Positions 2,344 to 25,903 of a stretch of 26,021 bases of DNA are shown here, one piece after another. This DNA is from a virus. Below the pieces are notes generated by a model. The model ran no database searches, had not been told where the DNA came from, and saw only the letters and a list, made by a program, of their open reading frames with translations. The stretch lies in the IMG/VR virus record IMGVR_UViG_3300025601_000102, positions 1-26,021 of that record. One strand, given 5' to 3'. A program made the translations under genes and the position numbers. Numbering within the stretch: the stretch's first letter is position 1; the number at the start of each line of letters is the position of its first letter.

Positions 2344-2706
2344 ATGAAGTACATTAAAATATTTTAAGAATTTGATAATAGTGTAGAAGATATTGAAGGA
2401 GTTAAGGGTTTACCCGGATTCAAATCACTATATCTAGATGGTCTTAAAGACATGTATGGTATAAGTGCTGATACAAATCCCGAATATGGTGATAACCGAA
2501 CAGTTGCTGATTTCGTTGATTATGTAGAATTGTTCGCCATTAACCCTGATGATGAACGAGTAATGTCTGGTGAATTCGATGATGCTATGACATTAATAGA
2601 TAATTTAATCATCGAAGCCGATCCGAATATCAATAGAGGAGAAGCTAGAATGTTAATCGACACTGTAAAGAATATGATCGATGGTAGTTTTAATCCCGAT
2701 GAATAA
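2344..2706 (+). pseudogene. leader gene with in-frame TAA at codon 8
   Basis: ATG 2344 begins MKYIKIF, then TAA at 2365-2367, then the same frame continues EFDNSVEDIEG and stays open for 112 codons to TAA at 2704. The first ATG after the stop is at 2452 (MYGISADTNPEYGDN), which would give 84 aa. The expected leader would be MKYIKIFEEF, so GAA to TAA is the simplest change. The same leader with the same TAA occurs in the gene at 4312-4782. It may be a true nonsense pseudogene, a readthrough gene, or a restart from 2452. The C-terminal part is acidic (FDDAMTLIDNLIIEADPN) with no recognised domain. Confidence 0.6.
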
Positions 2707-2712
2707 AATTAA

Positions 2713-3138
2713 CTAATCAAACATCTTCTTATATTCATTAGGAGCATCTTCCAATTTCAAAACTTTAGCCTTTATCGTATCAATTTCATTATTGATGGCC
2801 TTTTGTAATCGGTGATTACCATCCAGTACCTTATAATACTCACCACCTTTACTAGTTATTATTATAGGATACCTTAAATCAGACTTCTGAACCCTATCCA
2901 ATGTTTTTTTATCTTTTTTATCTTTGTTAATAGACAAACTAGCTATATCCTTAACTTTAATTCTAACAACATCCACATCTTTTAAATACTCCTCGACATC
3001 TGATATTGTTATAGTAATTTTCTCACCATCAATTTTTGCAGACCAACCGGTATCTTTATAATGGTCAATATCGTTTGCTGTATAAGATTTTACACCATCT
3101 TCTGATTCGTTAAATTTTTTCCATGTATCTATTTTCAT
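2713..3138 (-). CDS. ParB/sulfiredoxin-fold-like protein (141 aa)
   Basis: The C-terminal half carries a ParB-like signature: YPIIITSKGGEYYKVLDGNH followed by RLQKAINNEIDTIKAKVL, with the DGNHR loop (about residues 108-112) in the place of the DGxHR motif of ParB-type nuclease or sulfiredoxin folds. In such proteins this loop binds a nucleotide. No helix-turn-helix partition domain follows, so this is not a plasmid-type ParB; the target is unknown. The N-terminus (MKIDTWKKFNESEDG) fits the leader family. It lies 5 bases after the gene ending at 3144. A second ParB-like protein is at 16896-17339. Confidence 0.65.
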   Translation of the reverse strand: MKIDTWKKFNESEDGVKSYTANDIDHYKDTGWSAKIDGEKITITISDVEEYLKDVDVVRIKVKDIASLSINKDKKDKKTLDRVQKSDLRYPIIITSKGGEYYKVLDGNHRLQKAINNEIDTIKAKVLKLEDAPNEYKKMFD

Positions 3139-3143
3139 AATAA

Positions 3144-3827
3144 TTAGTTTTTTTTATATATTAACCTAGGATATCTGTTTTTGGACAAGTTGACGTTCTC
3201 CCACTTCATTACTGATTTTAATGTATCAGGAGATGGGAAATAACCAACATCACTCACTTTATTCTTAACAGAATTGAAAAGGTTCGTATATAATCCATCA
3301 TAGTCAGTGAATATAAAGTTGTTATCACCATCAACATGTTTAATTGATCTACGACTCTCGATAAAGTCTTTAATATCACCTTCGTTGAATCGGGAACAAA
3401 CACCACCAATCACAGAATTTTTACTATAAAAATCAGCCATCTTGAATGGTACATCAGTGAATATATTTAATTCCGTATTTATACTCAATAGTTCATTGAA
3501 AATTATGTCTGTTATTTTCTCATCATCCATAAAAATTCCCGATAAATTTTCTAGATGTTGTTCATCAAACCCGAATGGTAATTTCCATTTCTTAGATATT
3601 CCTGACGATCCAGCCTTTTCTTCCAGTTCTTGTGAGGGAAAACTAGTCCGGAAATACACATCTTCTTCAGGTATGTTATTTGAATTTTCTCTCATCTCAT
3701 CAAGAGATTTAATAACCAGAACATAATCACCATTCAAGAAATCTCTCTCCATCTGTTCGACATCAGTGTGGAATTTAACAGGAACTTGATCTTCTCGAAA
3801 CCTCTCGAAAAATTTTAGATATTTCAT
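3144..3827 (-). CDS. hypothetical protein with CTS-like leader (227 aa)
   Basis: It begins MKYLKFFERFREDQ, a clear member of the leader family. The rest is a soluble, mixed alpha/beta protein with no catalytic motif I recognise; notable segments are YVLVIKSLDEMRENSNNIPE and KWKLPFGFDEQHLENLSGIF. Its ATG overlaps the TGA of a 26-codon frame upstream (ATGA at 3824-3827), and the ParB-like gene follows after 5 bases, so a minus-strand operon is likely. Function is unknown. Confidence 0.7.
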   Translation of the reverse strand: MKYLKFFERFREDQVPVKFHTDVEQMERDFLNGDYVLVIKSLDEMRENSNNIPEEDVYFRTSFPSQELEEKAGSSGISKKWKLPFGFDEQHLENLSGIFMDDEKITDIIFNELLSINTELNIFTDVPFKMADFYSKNSVIGGVCSRFNEGDIKDFIESRRSIKHVDGDNNFIFTDYDGLYTNLFNSVKNKVSDVGYFPSPDTLKSVMKWENVNLSKNRYPRLIYKKN

Positions 3828-3939: not shown

Positions 3940-4254
3940 CTATCTACTTAAAGATAATTCATTATTCCACTCCTGATAAGATTCGTGGTAGTAATCATAA
4001 TCCTCCCATAACATAAAAGAAGATATCTCATCGTTTATTTTATCGACATCAGATTCACGATAAAATATATTGTGTTTACAATAATTAAGACAGTTTATAG
4101 AATACAGGTGATTATCCTCTCTATCACTTTCCTCATAACTCATGTGATACATCTCATCTAGTGAAAACTCATATCCATATTTCTCAAAGATAACCATATC
4201 ATACCCAACTGGGTTAGTATCTATACCTTGAATTATTTCTCGATTTCTTTTCAA
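3940..4254 (-). CDS. hypothetical acidic, Tyr-rich protein (TTG start?)
   Basis: The frame is open from just after the TAG of the mini-kinase gene (4312) down to TAG 3940. No ATG lies near its head: the first usable starts are TTG 4254 (104 aa) or ATG 4194 (84 aa). The product is rich in Tyr, Asp, Glu and Ser (YGYEFSLDEMYHMSYEESDR; WEDYDYYHESYQEWNNE) with no known domain. A TAnnTTTG box (TATCTTTG, 4281-4288) lies 27 bases before the TTG. Because it shares the frame of the upstream gene, a readthrough product is formally possible, but the kinase-like family normally ends at that point. Confidence 0.5.
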   Translation of the reverse strand: MKRNREIIQGIDTNPVGYDMVIFEKYGYEFSLDEMYHMSYEESDREDNHLYSINCLNYCKHNIFYRESDVDKINDEISSFMLWEDYDYYHESYQEWNNELSLSR

Positions 4255-4311: not shown

Positions 4312-4782
4312 CTAAAATATATCTATTTGTTTATATTCATCCGTTTTCGGATCATACATTAGGTTATGAAATCCCATATCCATATACCCAAGATATTCAT
4401 TTGCTGAAATAATGGCATCTATCATCCTTTGAACCTCCATATCAGTGGATTTTAAATTCATAATATTAGATACATCATCCTGACTATTCCACAATATATC
4501 TCGGACTCTATCAAATTCTTCTAAATCAGATACTTTATCCATCGGTATCTCCTCTAATCTTTCCATCCTAATTATCAACATATTATCCTCATCCACCCAA
4601 ACATCATAGATATTTACAACATGTGGGTGATTTTTACCAACATATTTCTTAATATTTTCAATATCTCCCACATTATCCTGTTGTACATATTTATAAGCAT
4701 AATCAACATCTACGTACACTTCACCCTCGGTTCCTTCACCCGAAAATTCTATAAATTCTTAAAATATTTTAATATACTTCAC
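4312..4782 (-). CDS. mini protein kinase-like gene with in-frame TAA at codon 8
   Basis: From GTG 4782 the frame reads VKYIKIF, TAA (4759-4761), then EFIEFSGEGTEGEVYVDVDY and on to TAG 4312. The GEGTEGEV stretch is a Gly-rich loop; AYKYV supplies the VAIK-type Lys; HPHVVNIYDVWVDEDNMLII matches the hinge region; YMDMGFHNLMYD matches the catalytic loop (Asp and Asn kept) and QIDIF the end at DFG. It is a reduced kinase fold ending at DFG, a type I recall from environmental phages. The first start after the TAA, GTG 4719, would cut off the Gly-rich loop, so the real product must begin upstream. Either the TAA is read through, a non-standard start is used, or the gene is dead. Confidence 0.6.
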
Positions 4783-4858
4783 AGTCTCTATATATTAAAC
4801 AATCCAAGGAAGAATTTCTATAAACATATATATGATATACAAAAAATAATTACTATGT

Positions 4859-5812
4859 ATGACACAGAGCCAAAATAAACCCGAAGAAATTTCAGAGGAT
4901 GATTATCTAAAAAGACACATAAACGAGAAAGAAAAAAATACAACGATAAATAACCTCAAATCTTATGAAAATGAAGAGAAAAAACAAATTAGTGGATCAA
5001 GAACAGAGGATTTACAATACCTATCATTCGATATAAATGAATTACCGTGTGGTAGATTCTATCCGGCTGGTACAGTATTAGGTGTAAGAGCCGCACAGGT
5101 CAGAGAAATTCAATCATATTCAATGGTTGATGATAAGAATTTCTATGATGTTGTTGAGAAGATGAATGATATGTTATCATCATGCGTGAGGTTAAAAAAT
5201 CCAGACGATACAATGAGTTCATACTTAAACATTAAAGACCAAGATAGATTATATCTAATCTTTTTAATCCGAGAACTTACTTTTCAAAAGGGTAATTCAC
5301 TAGAAATTAAAGCTAAATGTACATGTAGTGAGGAAATTGCAATCGAGCTAAAACGAGTAAATTTCAGATTTCACGAAGTTGATCCAGTACTAACACAGTA
5401 CCTAAACAATCAAGTAAATGGATTCATATTCGAAGTTGTTAATGGACAAGAATTTGAAATGACACCACCTACAATCGGTGTACAAAAGGCATTTACAGAT
5501 TACATCATAGAAGAAAATAATCAAAAAAGAAAGCCTAATCTTTCATTCTTAAAAATTATTCCTTTCATGTTAGGTGGTAGAAATTCAATAACCACTGAGG
5601 GCATTAGGTCCAAACTAACTGAGTATCAAAAACTAGATGAGGACTCATTTCAATTCTTGAATGCAGCAGTTGGTAAAATGACATTTGGTATTAAAGAATT
5701 AAAAAAATCTTGTACGTGTGGTTTGGAGGTACACACAGATATGTCATTTCCCAACGGAGCGTCAGGTATTTTCGTTATTCATAATGCCTTTGAGAAGTTT
5801 ATTAAAAAATAA
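4859..5812 (+). CDS. T4 gp26-like baseplate hub/assembly protein (317 aa)
   Basis: The core (about residues 60-165) reads LPCGRFYPAGTVLGVRAAQV, a run of helix, then DRLYLIFLIRELTF and a KAKCTCSEEI segment. This fits the T4 gp26-type baseplate family, whose members begin with LPSxGxFYP..xVxVRP and carry a small zinc-type Cys pair. Two CxC pairs (C154/C156 and C285/C287) could bind one metal. The N-terminal 50 residues are polar and probably disordered. It acts in baseplate assembly, in the cytoplasm of the infected cell. The next small gene lies just after it in the +1 frame. Assignment rests on remembered family pattern, not on a search. Confidence 0.55.
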   Translation: MTQSQNKPEEISEDDYLKRHINEKEKNTTINNLKSYENEEKKQISGSRTEDLQYLSFDINELPCGRFYPAGTVLGVRAAQVREIQSYSMVDDKNFYDVVEKMNDMLSSCVRLKNPDDTMSSYLNIKDQDRLYLIFLIRELTFQKGNSLEIKAKCTCSEEIAIELKRVNFRFHEVDPVLTQYLNNQVNGFIFEVVNGQEFEMTPPTIGVQKAFTDYIIEENNQKRKPNLSFLKIIPFMLGGRNSITTEGIRSKLTEYQKLDEDSFQFLNAAVGKMTFGIKELKKSCTCGLEVHTDMSFPNGASGIFVIHNAFEKFIKK

Positions 5813-7785: not shown

Positions 7786-10700
7786 TTATGATTGAATAAA
7801 CCCACCTGACTGAATTGCTCCAGACCCAAGTACATTTACGTTATTCACAATAATACCCATACCCATGATTGGCTCAACATATGTATCAAGAACTCCAATT
7901 TGATTCTGAATAATCTGATCATTGTTGTTCTCATCATCACACTTATTGAAGTATTCATAAAGACCACCCTTAGACTTATATGATTCACAGATTGTATCTG
8001 CTCTCAATTTAATCTCGGCTCTAACCTCAGGTGTGTTAAACTTCCATTGGAAAGTCAATAACATATCAGCAAGTTCTCGTTCAAGTTCAATAAGAACTTC
8101 TCTTACGTGTATGAAAGATAAAGATGATAATAATAATGTTTGAGCTGTGTTCTCAGTCTCGATTACATATCCTCTGTTTCTTTTAAATACGATTGGATTC
8201 ATCATAGCACCGTTCAAGTTTCCAATATCTTCTGGATTGAAATCTTGTTCAAGTCCAGCAATATTTGTAATTCGACCATTACTGATACCGGCAGCAATTG
8301 TCCACGGAACAATGTTAGTTACTGTTGATGTTTGCTTTCTCATATAAGTAAGTCCAACATATGCTGATGGTGGAACACTCGTAGGTCGACCATTATCATT
8401 TACAGTTACGTATGGTCCAAAATATCCAACAGATGATACACCAACTCCATCACCGAAAGAGTAAAGGAATGCTGGAGAACTATTAGGATCTCCACCACTA
8501 GCTATAAAATCTGTTTGTAGAACACCATCAGTATTAACAAATGATGGAGAACTTGAATTCTTAAATGATTTCATAGAAGGCATATTCAATATACCCAAGA
8601 TGTCTAATCTCTCACCACAGATATCAACTAACTGTTGTTTTGAACGTTCAGCCAAACCAAGTCCAAATGCATCGATTAAGTATCTGAAATCAAATGCTTC
8701 TTTATTAGTAACTGATTTGAATAACGGTGTTCCTTTTGCAACCAAATTAAGAATATCATCTTGTTTAGATTCAGTACCATCTGGTAATGAATCTTGTCTT
8801 ATACGGAAACCTTTAAGACTAATAGCCTTGTAAGTTGACGTATAATCATCAATATTAGTGTATCGGAAAGTTTGTTTATCACCATCACCGAAATCTCTTA
8901 TCTTTATTTCATCATCACACGTTATTTCAACAAGTGTTGTGTCGTTAGCCCATAGTCTCTTAGAAAGAACTCTTGTGAGTTTTCTAGGTACCTCATCAGA
9001 CATAAGTGATGTAGTAGAAAATGATGCTTCAAGGTAATCTCCAATTTTAACCTCCGTATATCTACTTGCTCTCACTAGTATCTTGTTAGCTACAGAAGTG
9101 TAACCAGCTGGTTCTTCAATCTCAACAGATTGTTTATAGGTTGAATCGAACGAATTTATATAGAAATTATTATTCGAAAGTAGTGAATTTGAATCAGGAT
9201 CAGAAACACCTAATGTACCAAAACTTTCAATTGTTTGAAGTGTTGGGTTTTCGAATGTTATTTTCATATTAAGTTCATTATCAATATACATATCAAGGTG
9301 TAATGGTCTATCTTCACCCATCTCACTAAAAGCATATAAGTTATTAACACTCAATATCTCTTCTGTCACATTTTCAGATATTTCATATGCGTAATAACTG
9401 TACGTAGCTGACGAAGACGCAAATACACCACCACTCAATGTTGAGAGTTGTATTGCTCTATTCAGTGCCGATGCCGGTACTGAATATCCGTTAGTAGGAT
9501 TCAGACCTTCATCCGATTGAACAGTGAATACACCATTATTATTAATACCACCAAACATGAATTGATATCCGGATCCTGATTGACTTACATCAGCCGAAGC
9601 TAAGAAATCTTTATTTAAATCAATGTTAGTATCACCAGTACCAGACAAAGATGATAAATCAACACCATATGGGTCTGTTTCTAATAGATTAACACCAAGT
9701 ACTAAATAATTATACCCGGCAAGTGAAGCTGCTACCGATGCACCCGGTACGAACTGAGCTACTAGTGTAGAGTAATTTGTTTTTTGGTAGATAACATCAG
9801 TTGAGTTGATAAGACCTTGTTCATACTTTCCATATAAATCAGAATATCTACCAACAACACCCATTGTTAATCCAGCAGGTTCAGATTTTGTCTCTGCACC
9901 ATCCAAACCTAATATCAATTCATCATCCAACTTGTAAAAAACAAGTGGTGATCCGTTAGTTGCAATCGCAACAGCGTCTGCGATACTAGCAAAGTAATTA
10001 TCTACATAATCATCCTCAACAACAGAGTTACTAGATGGGCTAGCCACGGGGTAACTGAAGTTCAATACAAATGACCTATTTAGGGTATTTGTATTATTAA
10101 TATCTGTCACATCTACAAAAACTAATGATGATTTTTGTGGGTCACCAGTTAATCCAAGTGGATCCAACAACAAAGAACCTTGATTCGATGATGAAGAGTT
10201 AGCATACGCCAATAAATTATTGAAATATTTCAAACTTCTATATTCGTCATAATTTCTCGTAGTAATAGATTGGTTCGTATTATCAAATACAACTCTAAAA
10301 GAAGAAGATCCAATACTATCATAATAATAATCCTGACCAACACCATAAGATAATGGTTTGAAGTTAGTATCACCAGATCCAACAGATCCATGATTTAAAG
10401 ATACATCATTCATATTCAATGATGTTAGTATGAAACTACCAGTAATACTGACTGAGAATGTAGCGTAACCGAGAACAATATCAGATGCTGATACTAACGG
10501 ATTTGAGTCCGGTGTCGTTGTCTGATATACTCTAACCGTACCCGTTGAATCAACAACAGTTGTAGCTACATACGATTGAGTTGATGTCGATACTGGATAG
10601 TATGATGAATTTATTTCAAAACTAGCACCTGATACTGTAACAGCATCACCACCGATAACAGCGTAACCATTATCAGAAATTGTATCAACACTATAATCCA

Positions 10701-15969: not shown

Positions 15970-16815
15970 ATGAACGCACATTTCATAGACATAGAACTGG
16001 TATTATCAGATAATGCCAAGGCATGGGTTATCTCAAAGGACAAGCCAGGAAAACCAATAATGAAGATAAGTAAATACGAATTCAATCTATTTACCTCAGG
16101 AATTTACAAAAGACACAGTAATAAAATCGATTTTAATGGTAAGTCGTTTCATCTCGATGAGAAAACAATGCAGAAACTCAAACGGAAATGTAAAGAGCAT
16201 AAGTGTGATATAACAAATCTTGGTATATCGATGCAAGAATTCCTGAATAAAGACATCATTGATGAAATGGATGTTGAAATAAAAACTGACGTATTAAAAC
16301 CTCTTATAAATTCACCAGACCACATATACATAATATGTCCGAAGAAAACCAAGAAAAATTATGAGAAACACATCGAAAAACTAGAAAAAGAAATGACTAA
16401 GGTTGGACTCAGGATAGAAGATTTTTACTTCTTAACAGAAACGTTTTATAATAGAAACAAATACGAAACAGCCTTCTTTAAGATGAAACTACTTTTACAA
16501 CACCTAATAGGTCTTAAAATCGAAGAAGGATCATTTATCAATGAGGAAGTTATGAGGTATGATCACGTATCTCTACACGATGGTTCATTCAAGGCTATCG
16601 AACTAGCCAATGATATAAACAAAATATTCGAAAAATTCTTAGAAAAAAGTGAGAAAGGTGTTAAACTTAAAGTTAAGTCACTTATGAAGAAATATGATAA
16701 TGTTCTAATAACAAACAAATGGACCTACAATAAGATTAATCTAGTTGAGAGAAAAATAATACCCTTGATATACTCGAATGTGATAAAGGCATTTGAGAAT
16801 TATAAGTGGAGATAG
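15970..16815 (+). CDS. hypothetical phage protein, possibly HAD/repair-like (281 aa)
   Basis: Two halves can be seen. The N-terminal half has beta-type segments (HFIDIELVLSDNAKAWVISK; FNGKSFHLDEKTMQKLKRKC). The C-terminal half has a conserved-looking run HIYIICPKKTKKNYEKHIEK, DFYFLTETFYNR, LLLQHLIGLK and YDHVSLHDGSFKAIELANDI. I recall similar uncharacterised proteins in environmental T4-like phages; the last motif resembles a HAD-type Asp motif but lacks a clear DxD nucleophile. Function is unknown. An ATATATAGGA stretch just precedes the ATG, with AGGA serving as a possible ribosome site. Confidence 0.65.
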   Translation: MNAHFIDIELVLSDNAKAWVISKDKPGKPIMKISKYEFNLFTSGIYKRHSNKIDFNGKSFHLDEKTMQKLKRKCKEHKCDITNLGISMQEFLNKDIIDEMDVEIKTDVLKPLINSPDHIYIICPKKTKKNYEKHIEKLEKEMTKVGLRIEDFYFLTETFYNRNKYETAFFKMKLLLQHLIGLKIEEGSFINEEVMRYDHVSLHDGSFKAIELANDINKIFEKFLEKSEKGVKLKVKSLMKKYDNVLITNKWTYNKINLVERKIIPLIYSNVIKAFENYKWR

Positions 16816-18136: not shown

Positions 18137-18313
18137 ATGGCACGACCAAAAGGACAAACGAAACAGAAAGTAGGTTTCTCTATTGATATTACTACCGTCA
18201 AAGAACTAGATAATTTCTGTGATTCCAAAGATATAAATAGGTCCAAGTTGGTAAATATGATAGTCAAAGACTACTTAGAAAATCCAAGAAACTCAGAATG
18301 GCAAGACAGATAG
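18137..18313 (+). CDS. ribbon-helix-helix DNA-binding protein (58 aa)
   Basis: From ATG 18137: MARPKGQTKQKVGFSIDITT, then VKELDNFCDSKDINRSKLVN and MIVKDYLEN. A short strand (KVGFSIDI) followed by two helices with an NRSKLVNMIV turn is the RHH pattern of Arc/CopG/MetJ-type dimers. The gene overlaps the start of the terminase N-part by 16 bases in another frame, so the two are surely co-expressed. It may repress the divergent promoter between 18057 and 18137, or work as a DNA-recognition partner of the terminase. A TATATATACAAC stretch lies directly before the ATG. Confidence 0.75.
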   Translation: MARPKGQTKQKVGFSIDITTVKELDNFCDSKDINRSKLVNMIVKDYLENPRNSEWQDR

Positions 18314-18795
18314 TATGGACAACAAAAATGGTTGATGAAGCAGCCGACCAGTTAAATAACGGTTTTCTTCTATCAAGAGCTGATAATCCGTTTCACGAAG
18401 GAACGATTGGGCTCAGAAAAGATAAAATTACTTTTCGAATATCTCCGACCGAATTACAGGAATATATTAAATGCAAAACTGACGTACATCACTTTGCCGA
18501 AAATTACTGTTGGGTAAAGGGTGATAAAGGAGAACCAGTACGACTTAAACTAAGAGATTATCAAAAAGATATTCTCGATAAATTTCACAATAATAGATTT
18601 AATATACTAATGGCAAGCCGCCAAGTGGGAAAGTGTTTTGAGTATAACACAACTCTACTTATATATGACAAAAAGTTAGAAGTTTATAGAGATATTAAGT
18701 TTTTCCAATTATTATTTGAATTAAAAACTGATAAAAACATATATGATTATATAAAAAATACACTATATACACTTTTAAACATAATAAGTGATTGA
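18298..18795 (+). CDS. terL: large terminase N-part fused to N-intein (165 aa)
   Basis: Residues 1-112 are the start of a T4-type terminase: adenine-side motif region LRDYQKDILDKF (85-96) and the P-loop MASRQVGK (105-112). At Cys113 the sequence changes to intein: CFEYNTTLLIYDKKLEVYRD, splicing block A, then 33 more residues to TGA 18795. The break falls between Gly-Lys and the Thr that would complete Walker A; that Thr starts the extein in the gene at 19908. The product alone cannot bind ATP properly; trans-splicing must join both parts to make the DNA-packaging motor subunit. The intein tail after about residue 140 is low-complexity and hydrophobic-helical. Confidence 0.9.
   Translation: MARQIVWTTKMVDEAADQLNNGFLLSRADNPFHEGTIGLRKDKITFRISPTELQEYIKCKTDVHHFAENYCWVKGDKGEPVRLKLRDYQKDILDKFHNNRFNILMASRQVGKCFEYNTTLLIYDKKLEVYRDIKFFQLLFELKTDKNIYDYIKNTLYTLLNIISD
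18634..18792 (+). other. split intein, N-fragment (53 aa)
   Basis: Starts with the catalytic Cys (TGT 18634) in CFEYNTTLLI, the block A pattern Cys-x-x-x-(D/N)-T-x-(V/I). No block B is present in this fragment; block B-like sequence is found in the C-fragment. The fragment is therefore shorter than in canonical split inteins (around 100 aa) and resembles the atypical split described for TerL inteins such as AceL-TerL. Confidence 0.8.
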
Positions 18796-18861: not shown

Positions 18862-19878
18862 ATGTATATGGAAAGTATAATCAAAGAATATAATCTCAAA
18901 ATAAGTGAAAATATCAACATTAATGATAATGATGAAACGGTAACCTGTAGGATATGTGGTGAACAATGTAAACGAGTGTATGGTAGACACTTAAAACATT
19001 CACATAATAATATATCAACCAAGGAATATAAAGAACTGTTTCCTGGATCACCAATAACAGCACTGGGTGATAAGAAGAATACATCAAAGAATAGTGGTCA
19101 ACACATGAAGTCGGATAAATATAAGAAAATGTTTTCTGAGAAGTTTTCCGGTGAAAATAATCCAATGCATAAATCCAAAACCACCGAGAAATTTAGAAAA
19201 AGTGTCTCACCATTCAGTAAAGAATTTTATAAATTAAGATATCCAGATATGACAGAAAAAGAAATAACGGAGAAAATATCAAATCTTGCAATCGAAATAT
19301 CCAAGGACCGATTACTACCCTCAAATAAAGAGTATTGGATAGAGAAAGGGTTTTCTGAAAAAGATTCCATTAAAAAAGTATCAGATTCTCAAACGACATT
19401 CTCAAAGGAAATTTGTATTAAAAAATATGGTGAGGAAAGGGGTGTTGAAATATGGTTGGAACGACAAGCAAAGTGGCATAAAAACTTCAAGAAATCTAAT
19501 TTCAGCAAGATAAGCCAAGAATTGTTTCAATCTATTTGGGTATTAATTAAATCATCAATTAATAAGGAACATATTTATTTTGCCTCACTAAATGAGAATA
19601 AGGAAATAGTCGAATCCACACGAAATTATGAATATCGTTTAAAATTGAACGGATCATTTATATTACCGGACTTTTTTATGATAGATATTAATAAAATAAT
19701 TGAATTTGACGGTACATATTATCATCGAAACACACCTGAGAATAAAAGAAGGGAGGATGAAAGAGATGAGAATATCCAAAAAAGTGGATATGAAGTTCTA
19801 CACATATCAGAGAAGGAATATAAAAGTGATAAAGAGCAAACCATACAGAAATGTATCAATTTCCTACTTGATAAATAA
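18862..19878 (+). CDS. homing endonuclease inside the fractured terminase (338 aa)
   Basis: N-terminal zinc finger C29/C32...H43/H48 (TCRICGEQCKRVYGRHLKHS) of the MucR/Ros-like kind with the usual ISTKEYKELFPGSPI follow-up; a NUMOD3-like SGENNPMHKSK (96-106); a middle DNA-binding part with KKYGEERGVEIWLERQAKWH (188-206); and a C-terminal nuclease with LPDFFMIDINKIIEFDGTYYHR (D270, E281, D283, H288) and YEVLHISEKEY, of Vsr/PD-(D/E)xK type. It has its own frame and an AATATATACATG stretch upstream. It sits between the two intein halves, 66 and 29 bases from them, and probably cuts the uninterrupted terminase gene so the whole arrangement spreads by repair. Confidence 0.85.
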   Translation: MYMESIIKEYNLKISENININDNDETVTCRICGEQCKRVYGRHLKHSHNNISTKEYKELFPGSPITALGDKKNTSKNSGQHMKSDKYKKMFSEKFSGENNPMHKSKTTEKFRKSVSPFSKEFYKLRYPDMTEKEITEKISNLAIEISKDRLLPSNKEYWIEKGFSEKDSIKKVSDSQTTFSKEICIKKYGEERGVEIWLERQAKWHKNFKKSNFSKISQELFQSIWVLIKSSINKEHIYFASLNENKEIVESTRNYEYRLKLNGSFILPDFFMIDINKIIEFDGTYYHRNTPENKRREDERDENIQKSGYEVLHISEKEYKSDKEQTIQKCINFLLDK

Positions 19879-19907: not shown

Positions 19908-20345
19908 ATGAGGAACCTATTAAAATTGATAATATACAAGTTAATTGAATTCGTTGAATATATCGAATATCGTAATATGAATCTAGATGAGTGTGATATA
20001 TCTAAGAAGTTTATAGATGAGTTACACACAGATAGATATCAAGTATTATCAGATACGGGTTATGTGGATATATCATCATTGAGCATCACACAACCATATA
20101 CACATTATGAGGTTTTATTGAATAATGGTCTTAATATAACATGTGCTGATACACATATGTTATTTGATGAAAATATGAAAATAAAATTTGTGGAGGATAT
20201 TATTTTGGGTGATTTAATACAAACAAAGTATGGGTTGTCCAAAGTATCAAAATTAGAAAAGAAAAGACATCGTACCTCAATGGGTGATTTATCGGTCATG
20301 GATTCTAATATGAGATATTACACTAATGGTATATTATCACACAAC
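19908..20345 (+). other. split intein, C-fragment (up to 146 aa)
   Basis: Holds everything downstream of block A: the CADTHML block B-like segment (residues 79-85), strand regions, block F and the C-terminal His-Asn (AAC 20343-20345), with Thr as the +1 nucleophile. The His-Asn-Thr end is standard for active inteins. No endonuclease domain is embedded, because the endonuclease is a separate gene upstream. Confidence 0.8.
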
Positions 20346-22103
20346 ACTATCTGTTCATCAATAATGCTACTCCACTTCGTTCTATTCAATAATAATAAGA
20401 ACGCTCTAGTAACAGCAAATAAATTAGATACTGCCGTTGAAGTACTGGATAAAATACGTGAAATATACCAAAGACTACCATTCTTTTTACAATCAGGGAT
20501 TGTCAATTGGAGTATGAAGACAATTGTTTTTGAAAATAAAAGCCGAATTAAAGGTTTTGCCACAACCAAAACAGCATCAATTGGTCAGGCTGCCGATTTC
20601 TTATACTTAGATGAGTTTGCATACTTACCAGATACGATTGCCGAGAAGTTTTATAAATCTGTATTTCCGACAGTTTCCTCAATGGAGAACTCTAAGATTA
20701 TAATAACATCAACACCAAACGGATATAATCTATTTCATAAACTTTTAATGGATGCTGAGAAACCAGAGGGTGAGAAATCTAACTACATGCCTAATAGAGT
20801 CTATTGGTGGCAAGTGGAAAAGAGACACGTTACTTATATAAGACTCAATAAATCCAAATTATCCGATTCTGGGATTACTAAAGAAGAAGTTCTGGAGTTC
20901 ATGGTAAATAAATATACAGATACAAAGTGTGAATTGGCCTGGAATGATGAAATAAGTAAATGGGTTGTACATGTATTGAATAAGCCGTCCTGCACCGAGG
21001 AGATGATATTGAATGATGTTATAAAGGGTATAAAAGTACCAGTGTTGGGTGATGTAACAACTTGGAAAAAAGAAACCATCAAAGATATTGGGGGAGAAGA
21101 AGCTTTTAACCAAGAATTTGACCTTAGATTCATAAACACATCAAGATCATTGTTAGACGAAACTCTTATAAGAGACTTACGAGAAAATGCCGAAGAATAT
21201 ACATACCAACCAATCGATGAGATTGAGGAGAGATTGAGGTTCGATTTATCTGATTTGGTTTGGAACATCAATCCAAAGACTTACGAGCATGAAAAACGGA
21301 AGAAATACAAGATTATAATATCTGTTGATATTTCCGAAGGGTTAGGACAGGATTCATCAATCATAAATATGTTCAAAGTTGCACCCAAACCAGTTGAATT
21401 AATAAATAGAGATGGGTTCAAATATAAAAGTATAGGCGATTTTTACCAATTAGAACAGATTGGATTATTTAAAAATAACCTAGTATCTGTTAGTGAATTA
21501 TCCGAATTACTCTACCTAATATGTTTTGAACACTTCGACCCGGACAATGTTAAAGTTGTAGTTGAATTAAACAACTATGGTAATGAGTTGTTGGCTCACA
21601 TGCCTCACCTTTTTGATGGACATAACAATTATGGATCTTCTATATTCTTCCGTTACAAACACAGAATAGATTCTCATGATGAGAAACTTGGTTTAAAGGT
21701 GGGTGCTAATAAGAATTTATTGGTAAAAGATTACCAAGAAAGAATGGCTTCTCGTAGTATCAAAGTAACTAACCTCGAAACTATTACGGAAATGACAACA
21801 TTCATAAAACACACAACAAATGCCGGTAATATTGTTTATCGAGCCGATGGATCACAACACGATGATCAAGTTATGACAATTGTAAACATGTCTAGTGTAT
21901 TTGAGAAGACCGAGTTTAAACAAATAATCGAAGACTACCATTACGAAGACACACCAACAGATATTAAACGTGTTATCGATGAGGTTATGGATAAGATTGA
22001 ATACAATGATCCAGTAGATTATACACAACTTTTAGATGTCAGAAGACGTAAGATGGGTATAGGTAATAAATCCAAAATGGCCCGTAAAGAGTGGGGGTTA
22101 TAA
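19908..22103 (+). CDS. terL: C-intein fused to large terminase C-part (731 aa)
   Basis: Residues up to Asn146 are intein (block B-like NITCADTHMLF, block F DLSVMDSNMRYYTNG, block G GILSHN); Thr147 begins the extein TICSSIMLLHFVLFNNNKNA, the rest of Walker A. Terminase motifs follow: Walker B LYLDE (232-236), coupling motif STPNG (268-272), then the RNase H-like nuclease with Asp474 (IISVDISEGLGQD), Glu553 (VVVELNNYG) and Asp652/653 (GSQHDDQVM). All key residues are present. Extein total with the N-part is 697 aa, near the family size (T4 gp17, 610). The start is ATG 19908; ATG 19977 is an alternative that shortens only the intein head. Confidence 0.9.
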   Translation: MRNLLKLIIYKLIEFVEYIEYRNMNLDECDISKKFIDELHTDRYQVLSDTGYVDISSLSITQPYTHYEVLLNNGLNITCADTHMLFDENMKIKFVEDIILGDLIQTKYGLSKVSKLEKKRHRTSMGDLSVMDSNMRYYTNGILSHNTICSSIMLLHFVLFNNNKNALVTANKLDTAVEVLDKIREIYQRLPFFLQSGIVNWSMKTIVFENKSRIKGFATTKTASIGQAADFLYLDEFAYLPDTIAEKFYKSVFPTVSSMENSKIIITSTPNGYNLFHKLLMDAEKPEGEKSNYMPNRVYWWQVEKRHVTYIRLNKSKLSDSGITKEEVLEFMVNKYTDTKCELAWNDEISKWVVHVLNKPSCTEEMILNDVIKGIKVPVLGDVTTWKKETIKDIGGEEAFNQEFDLRFINTSRSLLDETLIRDLRENAEEYTYQPIDEIEERLRFDLSDLVWNINPKTYEHEKRKKYKIIISVDISEGLGQDSSIINMFKVAPKPVELINRDGFKYKSIGDFYQLEQIGLFKNNLVSVSELSELLYLICFEHFDPDNVKVVVELNNYGNELLAHMPHLFDGHNNYGSSIFFRYKHRIDSHDEKLGLKVGANKNLLVKDYQERMASRSIKVTNLETITEMTTFIKHTTNAGNIVYRADGSQHDDQVMTIVNMSSVFEKTEFKQIIEDYHYEDTPTDIKRVIDEVMDKIEYNDPVDYTQLLDVRRRKMGIGNKSKMARKEWGL

Positions 22104-24314: not shown

Positions 24315-24956
24315 ATGAGCTATACTAAAAAATTTGAAAATTTTCAAAAAAGTAAAAAGACTAAGGATATAACTCCGAAATCAAAAGAACAAGATGAACT
24401 TAATGAAGGTGCAAATGAGGTAGGTAACATGTACAAAGTTGTAACTACTATTGACGTACCAACATCTTTGATAAATGCGTACACTAAGAAAGTGAAGGAT
24501 ACTTTTGATAAAGATATCAACTCAACTTGGGGTAAAGAAAGTATAGCAGAAGAATTAGTTAAGTTTGTCAATATGACATATCTTAATATAGACACTATTC
24601 ACGCTGGAGCATTAACAGGAGATCCTGATCCAGCTGCACAAACACAAGCACAACCGTTATCAATGGCTCAGGTTCAACCACAAGCTCAGGCTCAGGCACA
24701 AGGTCAGGCACAAGGTCAGGTACAAATTGATCCACAAGCTCAGGCACAAGGTCAGGTACAAGTTGACCCACAAGCTCAGGCACAAGGTCAGGTACAAGTT
24801 GACCCACAAGCTCAGGCACAAGGTCAGGTACAAGTTAATCCACAAGCTCAGGCTCAGGCACAAGCACAAATACCACCAACATCTGATGAGTTTGGAGAAA
24901 TTCAAGATGATGAGGAAGTTCAAGATGATGAGGATGATGAAACTCTTCCTATTTAA
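24315..24956 (+). CDS. leader protein with Gln/Ala-rich repeats (213 aa)
   Basis: [20 protein letters not shown] is leader-like. A small helical domain follows ([40 protein letters not shown]), then a low-complexity region of repeated [12 protein letters not shown] units and a very acidic tail ([13 protein letters not shown]). The repeat part is surely disordered. No enzymatic motif is seen. A strong terminator follows. The combination of leader, spacer and acidic tail would fit a head-internal or scaffold-type protein, but this is inference. Confidence 0.7.
24729..24869 (+). repeat. 36-bp tandem repeats (12-aa [12 protein letters not shown])
   Basis: Three full units start at 24729, 24765 and 24801, plus a partial fourth at 24837 that turns into AQAQAQ. 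Units differ by only a few bases (GATCCA, GACCCA, AATCCA), so the expansion is recent and in frame. Copy number probably varies between relatives. Confidence 0.9.
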
Positions 24957-25294: not shown

Positions 25295-25903
25295 ATGAAG
25301 TATATTAGGGAATATAATAACTATAATAATGATTTGATTATAGTAGATGTACAAAAATCTTTCAAAGAGTTTTTTACAGAAACATATTTAGAGAAAATTA
25401 AAGAACACTGTAAATTATTTCAAAATGTGTATCAAATATGGGACAATCACTCCGAGGAACAAAAACCCGATAGTGATTACCTATATGATTATAATCCTGA
25501 TATCCCAGTACATCAAGATTTATATCAATTTCCCAACCAAAGAAAACTCATTGAGAAGAGGTATAATTATAATGTTGATGCCGATTACTATAAAAGAATA
25601 TTAACGGAAGAGACACACTCCAAAATAAGTGAGATGGAGGATAATAAAACCATAAAGAGAGGTGATATGTTCTCAACGAAAGAAGGAACTGTAATTACCT
25701 ACATTGATAATTCACATAAATGGTTCCACTGTCCAAAAAAGCTATACAATCTATTAAATGACCACAAAGGTAAATCGGTGGAAATTATCGGTGGGGCAGA
25801 TGGTGAGTGTTTAGACGATGTTTTCATACTTGCTGAGAAAATGGGTGTTCGTGTTGTTCGAAATCATCAATTTATCTATTCAGCCACACATTGCCCAATA
25901 TAA
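25295..25903 (+). CDS. isochorismatase-like cysteine hydrolase family protein (202 aa)
   Basis: ATG 25295 starts MKYIREYNNYNNDLIIVDVQ: a leader joined directly to IVDVQKSFKEFF, the first strand with the catalytic Asp of cysteine hydrolases. Near the end, GGADGECLDDVFILAEKMGV has Cys in the nucleophile place, followed by RVVRNHQFIYSATHCPI. The middle is family-specific (WDNHSEEQKPDSDYLYDYNP; EKRYNYNVDADYYKR). The family cleaves C-N or vinyl-ether bonds in small molecules; the substrate here is unknown. An in-frame start at 25250 would overlap the preceding gene and is rejected. It is the only leader gene in the window with a good enzymatic assignment apart from the mini-kinase. Confidence 0.75.
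   Translation: MKYIREYNNYNNDLIIVDVQKSFKEFFTETYLEKIKEHCKLFQNVYQIWDNHSEEQKPDSDYLYDYNPDIPVHQDLYQFPNQRKLIEKRYNYNVDADYYKRILTEETHSKISEMEDNKTIKRGDMFSTKEGTVITYIDNSHKWFHCPKKLYNLLNDHKGKSVEIIGGADGECLDDVFILAEKMGVRVVRNHQFIYSATHCPI

Follow-up and report, generated by a model that had tools for sequence, protein, structure and literature searches.

Among the described systems closest to the locus reported here is the capsid-targeting sequence (CTS) of the phage T4 proteins IPI, IPII, and IPIII, whose N-termini read MKTFKEF (IPI) and MKTYQEFIAEA (IPII and IPIII), with no stop codon in the wild-type tags. Residues 4 and 7 of the T4 CTS matter for targeting (PMC9026906). In giant phages such as SPN3US, dozens of proteins are packaged with the genome and ejected (PMC10052503, PMC7411985). 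In-frame stop codons within genes have been described for stop-codon recoded phages, for example, those reading TAG as Gln (PMC9523058), and bypassing has been described for T4 gene 60 (PMC11194080). UAA is regarded as the tightest stop codon (PMC5289835).

We analyzed 26,021 nucleotides of DNA from a huge phage (IMG/VR record IMGVR_UViG_3300025601_000102), referred to as the window. Two genes in the window, one of them kinase-like, open with the same short tag, and codon 8 of the tag is an in-frame TAA in both (Table 1). Similar to the T4 CTS, the tag is short and N-terminal, begins with M-K, has a hydrophobic residue at position 4 and F at position 7, and is carried by unrelated proteins. 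Its motif is longer, however, including K5, F10, and E12, and T4 IPI-III scored only -7.2 to 0.3 on the tag profile described below. If packaged, the tagged proteins would resemble SPN3US-type ejection proteins in their large number. The window differs from recoded phages in that each of the two genes has one TAA, at one codon, and TAA ends 21 of the 29 window genes. It differs from T4 gene 60 in that the gap is only a few codons and a hairpin is not predicted in both RNAs.

Table 1. Coordinates of the two stop-bearing genes and of intact-tag genes in the window
Feature	Position	Strand	Remark
Kinase-like gene, tag codons 1-7, V/M-K-Y-I-K-I-F, GTG start	4762..4782	-	profile score 18.7
In-frame TAA, tag codon 8	4759..4761	-	also in the second contig, L001/L003
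Tag remainder 3' of the stop, E-F-I-E-F	4744..4758	-	F10 and E12 match the profile
Glycine-rich loop GEGTEGEV (GxGxxGxV)	4717..4740	-	last codon is GTG 4719-4717
Kinase-like open frame, 148 codons after the TAA	4312..4758	-	ends at TAG 4314-4312
Kinase-like motifs	Lys 4692-4690; YMDMGFHN 4386-4363; IDIF 4326-4315	-	within the kinase-like frame
TATATA element, about 12 bases 5' of GTG 4782	4789..4794	-	pattern only
Second gene, tag M-K-Y-I-K-I-F, ATG start	2344..2364	+	26/27 bases as in the kinase tag
In-frame TAA, codon 8 of the second tag	2365..2367	+	also in the second contig, L003/L100
Open frame, 112 codons after the TAA, unrelated to the kinase	2368..2706	+	
Intact-tag gene for comparison, MKYLKFFERFRED	3144..3827	-	L004 and L082 orthologues tagged
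Intact-tag gene for comparison	24315..24956	+	

The tag profile was derived from contigs related to the window via the neighboring gene at 4859-5812, and in the best 80 of the 200 loci, many unrelated ORFs start with MK[YH][IL]K-[FY]--F. The profile was built from 54 distinct N-termini; because the selection pattern fixed positions 2, 7, and 10, its independent weight lies at positions 3, 4, 5, and 12. Two sister huge-phage genomes, LR745206 (634,780 bases; neighboring gene 62.5% identical) and LR756502 (642,428 bases; 61.9% identical), were not in the training set. At a profile threshold of 11, raw matches numbered 82 and 106, respectively, and six rows were dropped from each set (three because a stop interrupts the tag, three for being under 60 codons). 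The tag thus opens 76 ORFs in LR745206 and 100 in LR756502 of at least 60 codons, and the bodies of those in LR745206 fall into 67 clusters, so that, as for the T4 CTS, one peptide is common to unrelated proteins of one phage. Four matches were obtained in 160,000 bases of Markov-shuffled LR745206, so that, prior to length filtering, about 16 chance matches are expected in each genome. By analogy with T4, this tag of about 13 residues, which opens about a hundred proteins that are mostly unrelated, is probably a capsid-targeting signal.

The tag is kept in orthologues of the intact-tag gene at 3144, which starts with MKYLKFFERF in the window, MRYLKLFEKF in L004, and MVYIKLFEKF in L082. The window genes at 2713-3138 and 3144-3827 on the minus strand, one ParB-like and one tagged, correspond to a single fused protein of 333 amino acid residues in L004 (7514-8515, minus strand), and a TnpB-like gene (8534-9811) occupies the position of the window kinase in that locus. 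In many tagged proteins, the tag is followed by a short DIxxELxDDG-like stretch (LR745206 L123-L154 and LR756502 L157-L189). The tagged protein encoded at 25295-25903 on the plus strand contains a cysteine-hydrolase-like stretch, LIIVDVQKSF; it has relatives in both sister genomes, and the one in LR756502 is tagged (L167:7650). Elsewhere in the window, the large terminase gene is, by eye, seemingly split into two parts (18298-18795 and 19908-22103, plus strand), with an endonuclease-like gene (18862-19878) between them. Also by eye, GKCFEYNTTLLIYD at the end of the first part resembles the start of an intein, and GILSHNT within the second part resembles an intein end; the arrangement has the appearance of a split intein enclosing a free-standing endonuclease.

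On the minus strand, GTG 4782 opens VKYIKIF-stop-EFIEF. This tag scored 18.7 bits and ranked second among the 2671 window start codons, and none of 40 Markov shuffles reached that score (best, 15.4). From position 4782, the strand reads GTG AAG TAT ATT AAA ATA TTT TAA GAA TTT ATA and continues GAA TTT TCG GGT GAA GGA ACC GAG GGT GAA GTG, open to TAG 4314-4312; six codons, GAA TTT ATA GAA TTT TCG, thus lie between the TAA and the loop. No in-frame ATG, GTG, or TTG occurs between the TAA and GTG 4719, at which the ORF list opens the kinase-like gene as a protein of 135 amino acid residues. The sequence-only reading was therefore right that the glycine-rich loop lies in frame downstream of the TAA and ahead of the first usable start (4740-4717, minus strand), and that a product starting at GTG 4719 would be without it, since this GTG encodes the final Val, the sole residue of the loop to be retained. 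The TATATA element, which likewise precedes the starts at 15970 (plus strand) and 3904 (minus strand), suggests that transcription of the kinase-like gene may begin at or near GTG 4782. The start of the gene is likely to be GTG 4782, upstream of the TAA, not downstream.

In both genes, the reading frame stays open beyond the stop and looks coding there. The 13 codons from the TAA to GTG 4719 scored 7.2 bits for coding-type usage in frame and -0.2 to -5.8 in the other five frames, whereas 1.5% of 921 open non-coding 13-codon pieces reached 5 bits by chance; the 135 codons from GTG 4719 scored 41.4 bits. In the second gene, the first in-frame ATG is at 2452, and the 28 codons between the stop and this ATG scored 15.8 bits, with the other frames at most 1.5. 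No further lesion was found in the 148- or 112-codon frames, their codon usage equals that of working genes, and the conserved tag positions are retained both upstream and downstream of the stop. In neither gene do the seven codons that precede the stop have coding-type usage (-1.3 and -0.2), which speaks against our reading. A scan of the window yielded 14 coding segments with a first start six or more codons past a stop, and only these two genes combine a coding-type stretch ahead of that start with a start codon upstream of the stop, at a distance of seven codons in both. Extension of the kinase-like gene across TAG 4314 into the frame at 3940 was rejected, as the 19 intervening codons scored -6.8. 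That frame (3940-4254, minus strand) consists of 104 codons with coding-type usage and is in the same frame as the kinase beyond its TAG; neither ATG nor GTG occurs close to where it opens, the best candidate start being TTG 4254, and it has no homologue among the related loci.

In the second gene, ATG 2344 on the plus strand opens MKYIKIF-stop-EFDNS, which scored 17.4 bits and ranked third among the window start codons. Over codons 2-10, 26 of 27 bases are identical between the two stop-bearing tags, and the single mismatch is synonymous (TAT/TAC); over codons 11-13, two of nine bases are identical. The bodies that follow are unrelated by eye and have no common match. Because an unrelated gene has the same tag and the same TAA, the stop appears to be a property of the tag and not of the kinase. 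No homologue of the second body was found in the searches run; L122 was rejected as a candidate, as the likeness covers 23 residues, it had been chosen via a shared 8-mer, and it reads deoxyribosyltransferase-like.

These observations bear on how translation past the TAA had been interpreted before. The sequence-only reading had judged plain restart less likely than readthrough or a non-AUG start, and the doubt about restart at GTG 4719 held: plain restart there is unlikely as a design because the stretch after the TAA looks coding and adds to the kinase score. Its alternative of a start at ATA 4752 was not supported, as the tag spans the TAA from GTG 4782 and the second gene has GAT at the matching codon. 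That the region after the TAA looks protein-coding is supported by its coding-type codon usage and by a kinase-family score of 17.1 bits, compared to 13.5 bits when the stretch ahead of GTG 4719 is left out. The claim of direct evidence for selection was overstated, in contrast, since no kinase homologue was found in the collections searched. The sequence-only reading had overlooked the tag, the identical stop in a second gene, and the simplest alternative, namely that a nonsense change reduces or silences the gene.

The stop-bearing tag is rare. Both TAAs are also carried by the second contig from this phage, IMGVR_UViG_3300023245_000143, which differs from the window by one mismatch in 14,887 bases, located in another gene. 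This sole difference, at window position 1609, turns Lys into Met at residue 2 of a tag-like MKFEKFYQF. Among the 176 tagged ORFs retained from LR745206 and LR756502, from which stop-bearing rows had been dropped beforehand, none is interrupted by a stop within the tag. Six matches in these genomes do bear a stop; they are followed by 0, 5, 103, 4, 2, and 2 open codons and were judged to be chance matches, one of them maybe a remnant. The match with 103 open codons, LIYIKK-stop-KSFNNS in LR745206 (TTG start, score 11.8), was among those judged to be chance. MKYLRNFKNF-stop-GS in LR756502 (L161:17992, plus strand; score 17.0, four open codons) is possibly a remnant or dead tag. When IMG/VR was scanned for tags whose codon 8 is TAA, 26 matches in 25 loci were obtained. 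The matches from the phage studied here, in its second contig, are its two genes and alone have a long frame behind the stop; the other 24 loci, with 0-49 open codons past the stop, were judged to be chance matches. The pattern with other stops gave one chance match only, and no stop-bearing tag was found in GTDB or in seven phage genomes; LR756501, LR756500, LR756504, PAU, and Lak-C1 were covered by the pattern search alone. The closest sister tag, MKHIKIFEEF in LR745206, is alike in 24 of 27 bases, and its codon 8 is a sense codon.

Reassignment of TAA is ruled out by its use as the terminator of 21 of the 29 window genes, including those for the sheath and the terminase, and the UAAG context also ends three ordinary window genes. 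The search for tRNAs gave none in the window or L003, and no suppressor was present among the ARAGORN-named tRNAs of LR745206. Frameshifting was rejected, as both alternative frames close within a few codons past the stop in both genes. The predicted RNA fold of a 65-nt piece of the kinase-like gene gave a z score of -2.6, with four of 200 shuffles as good, and that of a 67-nt piece of the second gene gave -0.4; no clear structure common to both stop sites was predicted. The stop-bearing tag includes TTAAAATATTTTAA, a perfect palindrome of 14 bases, which in the kinase RNA is predicted to fold into a weak A-U hairpin with the stop inside it; this hairpin is absent from the predicted fold of the second RNA. 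This palindrome occurs in the window only twice, once per gene, and the longest palindrome arm in the LR745206 tags is 5; palindromes of at least 14 bases number seven in the window, compared to 3.9 expected. Because palindromes of this type are prone to template-switch mutation, such a mutation possibly created the stop, either once with subsequent copying or twice, and the palindrome may also be incidental.

The body of the kinase-like gene is probably a minimal protein-kinase-like domain, as indicated by a sub-threshold Pfam match, motif order, and a weak predicted fold. The match of PF00069 to the 148 codons after the TAA covers most of their length, with an E value of 0.0039 and the score given above, which lies below the cut-off of 31.7; PF16870, an unrelated family, scores the body similarly (E 0.0047). 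By eye, the body contains GxGxxGxV, a Lys (AYKY), HPHVVNIYDVW, YMDMGFHN, and a terminal IDIF. It shares with Hanks-type kinases the GxGxxGxV, the Lys, HPxVVxxYDV, D..N, and an ID near the end, and differs from them in its sub-cut-off score and in having no C-lobe. YMDMGFHN stands where kinases have HRDxKxxN, and the body ends two residues past what is presumably the DFG-like Asp, the HRD His and Lys being absent. An AF2 fold predicted from the single sequence was of poor confidence (mean pLDDT 56.6). With this low-confidence model, Foldseek returned a best E value of 0.044, kinases ranking first and making up most of the top 50 and none having E of 0.001 or less; VIA-align gave Z of at most 4.6, mostly for unrelated small alpha/beta domains; and a BFVD search gave no match at E of 0.001 or less.

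Homologues of the kinase-like body were searched for in several collections. With tblastn, none was found in phages at E 1, and four chance-level rows appeared at E 10. IMG/VR and 32 virus records yielded only the phage itself, and none of 54 candidate stretches in GTDB contigs was a homologue. PF00069 matched only the kinase-like gene itself in the 32 virus records; in seven phage genomes, it matched one larger, different kinase and one sequence full of stops. A match in Lak-C1, among the seven phage genomes searched (E 0.005, 39 residues), was rejected because its frame reads homing endonuclease-like, and a match in L033 was rejected because it sits within a different long protein. Two DNA-pattern searches for the kinase with an intact tag gave no match in one case and one chance match in the other.

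The explanation we favor, and to which we assign about an even chance, is that a nonsense-bearing tag common to the two genes was copied between them and that both genes are strongly reduced or silenced. The kinase-like gene would span GTG 4782 to TAG 4312 and comprise the tag and the kinase-like domain, and the stop-bearing tag would have been transferred from one gene to the other. Ribosomes would initiate at 4782 or 2344, add seven residues, and terminate; full-length protein would be made only via rare readthrough, and both genes would be largely silent. The anatomy, the frame, the coding signal after both stops, their presence in two contigs, and their absence from the sister tags are observed, whereas the role of the tag in the capsid, the transfer, and the reduced expression are the parts of this explanation that we infer. 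In its favor are the tag in frame before and after the stop, the nearly identical stop-bearing tag in an unrelated gene, the stop-free sister tags, the sense codon of the closest of them, and the palindrome; in addition, the two stop sites share no clear stimulatory RNA structure and UAA is the usual terminator here. On the other hand, both frames are otherwise intact, and the tag pair seems older than the strains, since the tags differ by a synonymous change whereas the contigs differ by one base in 14,887; there would thus have been time for decay, and none is seen. The transfer of a dead tag also needs a recombination event without obvious advantage. Instead of copying, two independent nonsense changes may have hit similar tags at a hot spot by quasi-palindrome correction, again with silencing as the effect. 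The stop completes the perfect 14-base palindrome in both genes, and codon 8 is one step from a stop in 61 of the 76 LR745206 tags; we nevertheless regard this origin as improbable, as the excess of palindromes over expectation is such that this one may be incidental, 7-base arms without a loop make weak hairpins, and a near-palindrome sister tag stayed unaltered.

The identical stop could instead be a shared control element of two unrelated genes, with UAA at codon 8 decoded by some ribosomes to give two tagged proteins in small fixed amounts. Such programmed readthrough agrees with the identity of the stop, codon position, and flanking bases in the two genes, the tag in frame on both sides, the coding signal directly after both stops, the lack of any other lesion, and the stability of both stops in two contigs. 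We consider it rather unlikely, though the serious rival to silencing, as the stop is absent from the 176 sister tags and other IMG/VR contigs, no clear common RNA structure was predicted, UAA is a tight stop (PMC5289835) and UAAG stands at three ordinary gene ends, no suppressor tRNA was found in the window, L003, or LR745206, and the abstracts of the literature searched contained no precedent. The proposal that the codon-8 UAA is a recoding site on more than one gene, by which selected tagged proteins, one of them kinase-like, would be packaged in a few copies per virion, is likewise doubtful and is offered tentatively. Restart or a non-AUG start, which would reduce the tag to a seven-codon leader and produce the kinase from GTG 4719 or ATA 4752 and the second protein from ATG 2452, has a low probability. 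GTG 4719 and ATG 2452 are in frame, and short upstream frames permit reinitiation in principle in a eukaryotic system (PMC4648390), but restart would discard the glycine loop or 28 coding-type codons, the distances are unequal (13 and 28 codons), the second gene has nothing to match the ATA, and the tag spelled by the upstream piece together with the codons after the stop would be left unexplained. A ribosome hop in the manner of T4 gene 60, from the TTT before the stop to the TTT two codons beyond it, is very improbable. In T4 gene 60, the stop follows a take-off codon that matches the landing codon, and here TTT TAA GAA TTT is identical in both genes and the kinase RNA is predicted to contain a weak A-U hairpin. 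Matching codons are expected anyway, however, since F7 and F10 both belong to the tag; one conserved Phe would be lost, and the second RNA is predicted to fold without the hairpin. An assembly or sequencing artefact might come to mind given the metagenomic origin of the sequence, but it is hardly credible with both stops present in two contigs.

If the stops are recoded, UAA readthrough would gate phage internal proteins and set their copy number in the virion, and to our knowledge there has been no earlier sign of such gating. The tagged ORFs of the sister genomes (76 and 100) provide a sequence handle on the candidate packaged or co-localized proteome of huge phages. If the two genes are silenced, as we favor, address tags would move between genes as small units and could bring a stop along, and delivered proteins would be switched off in pairs.
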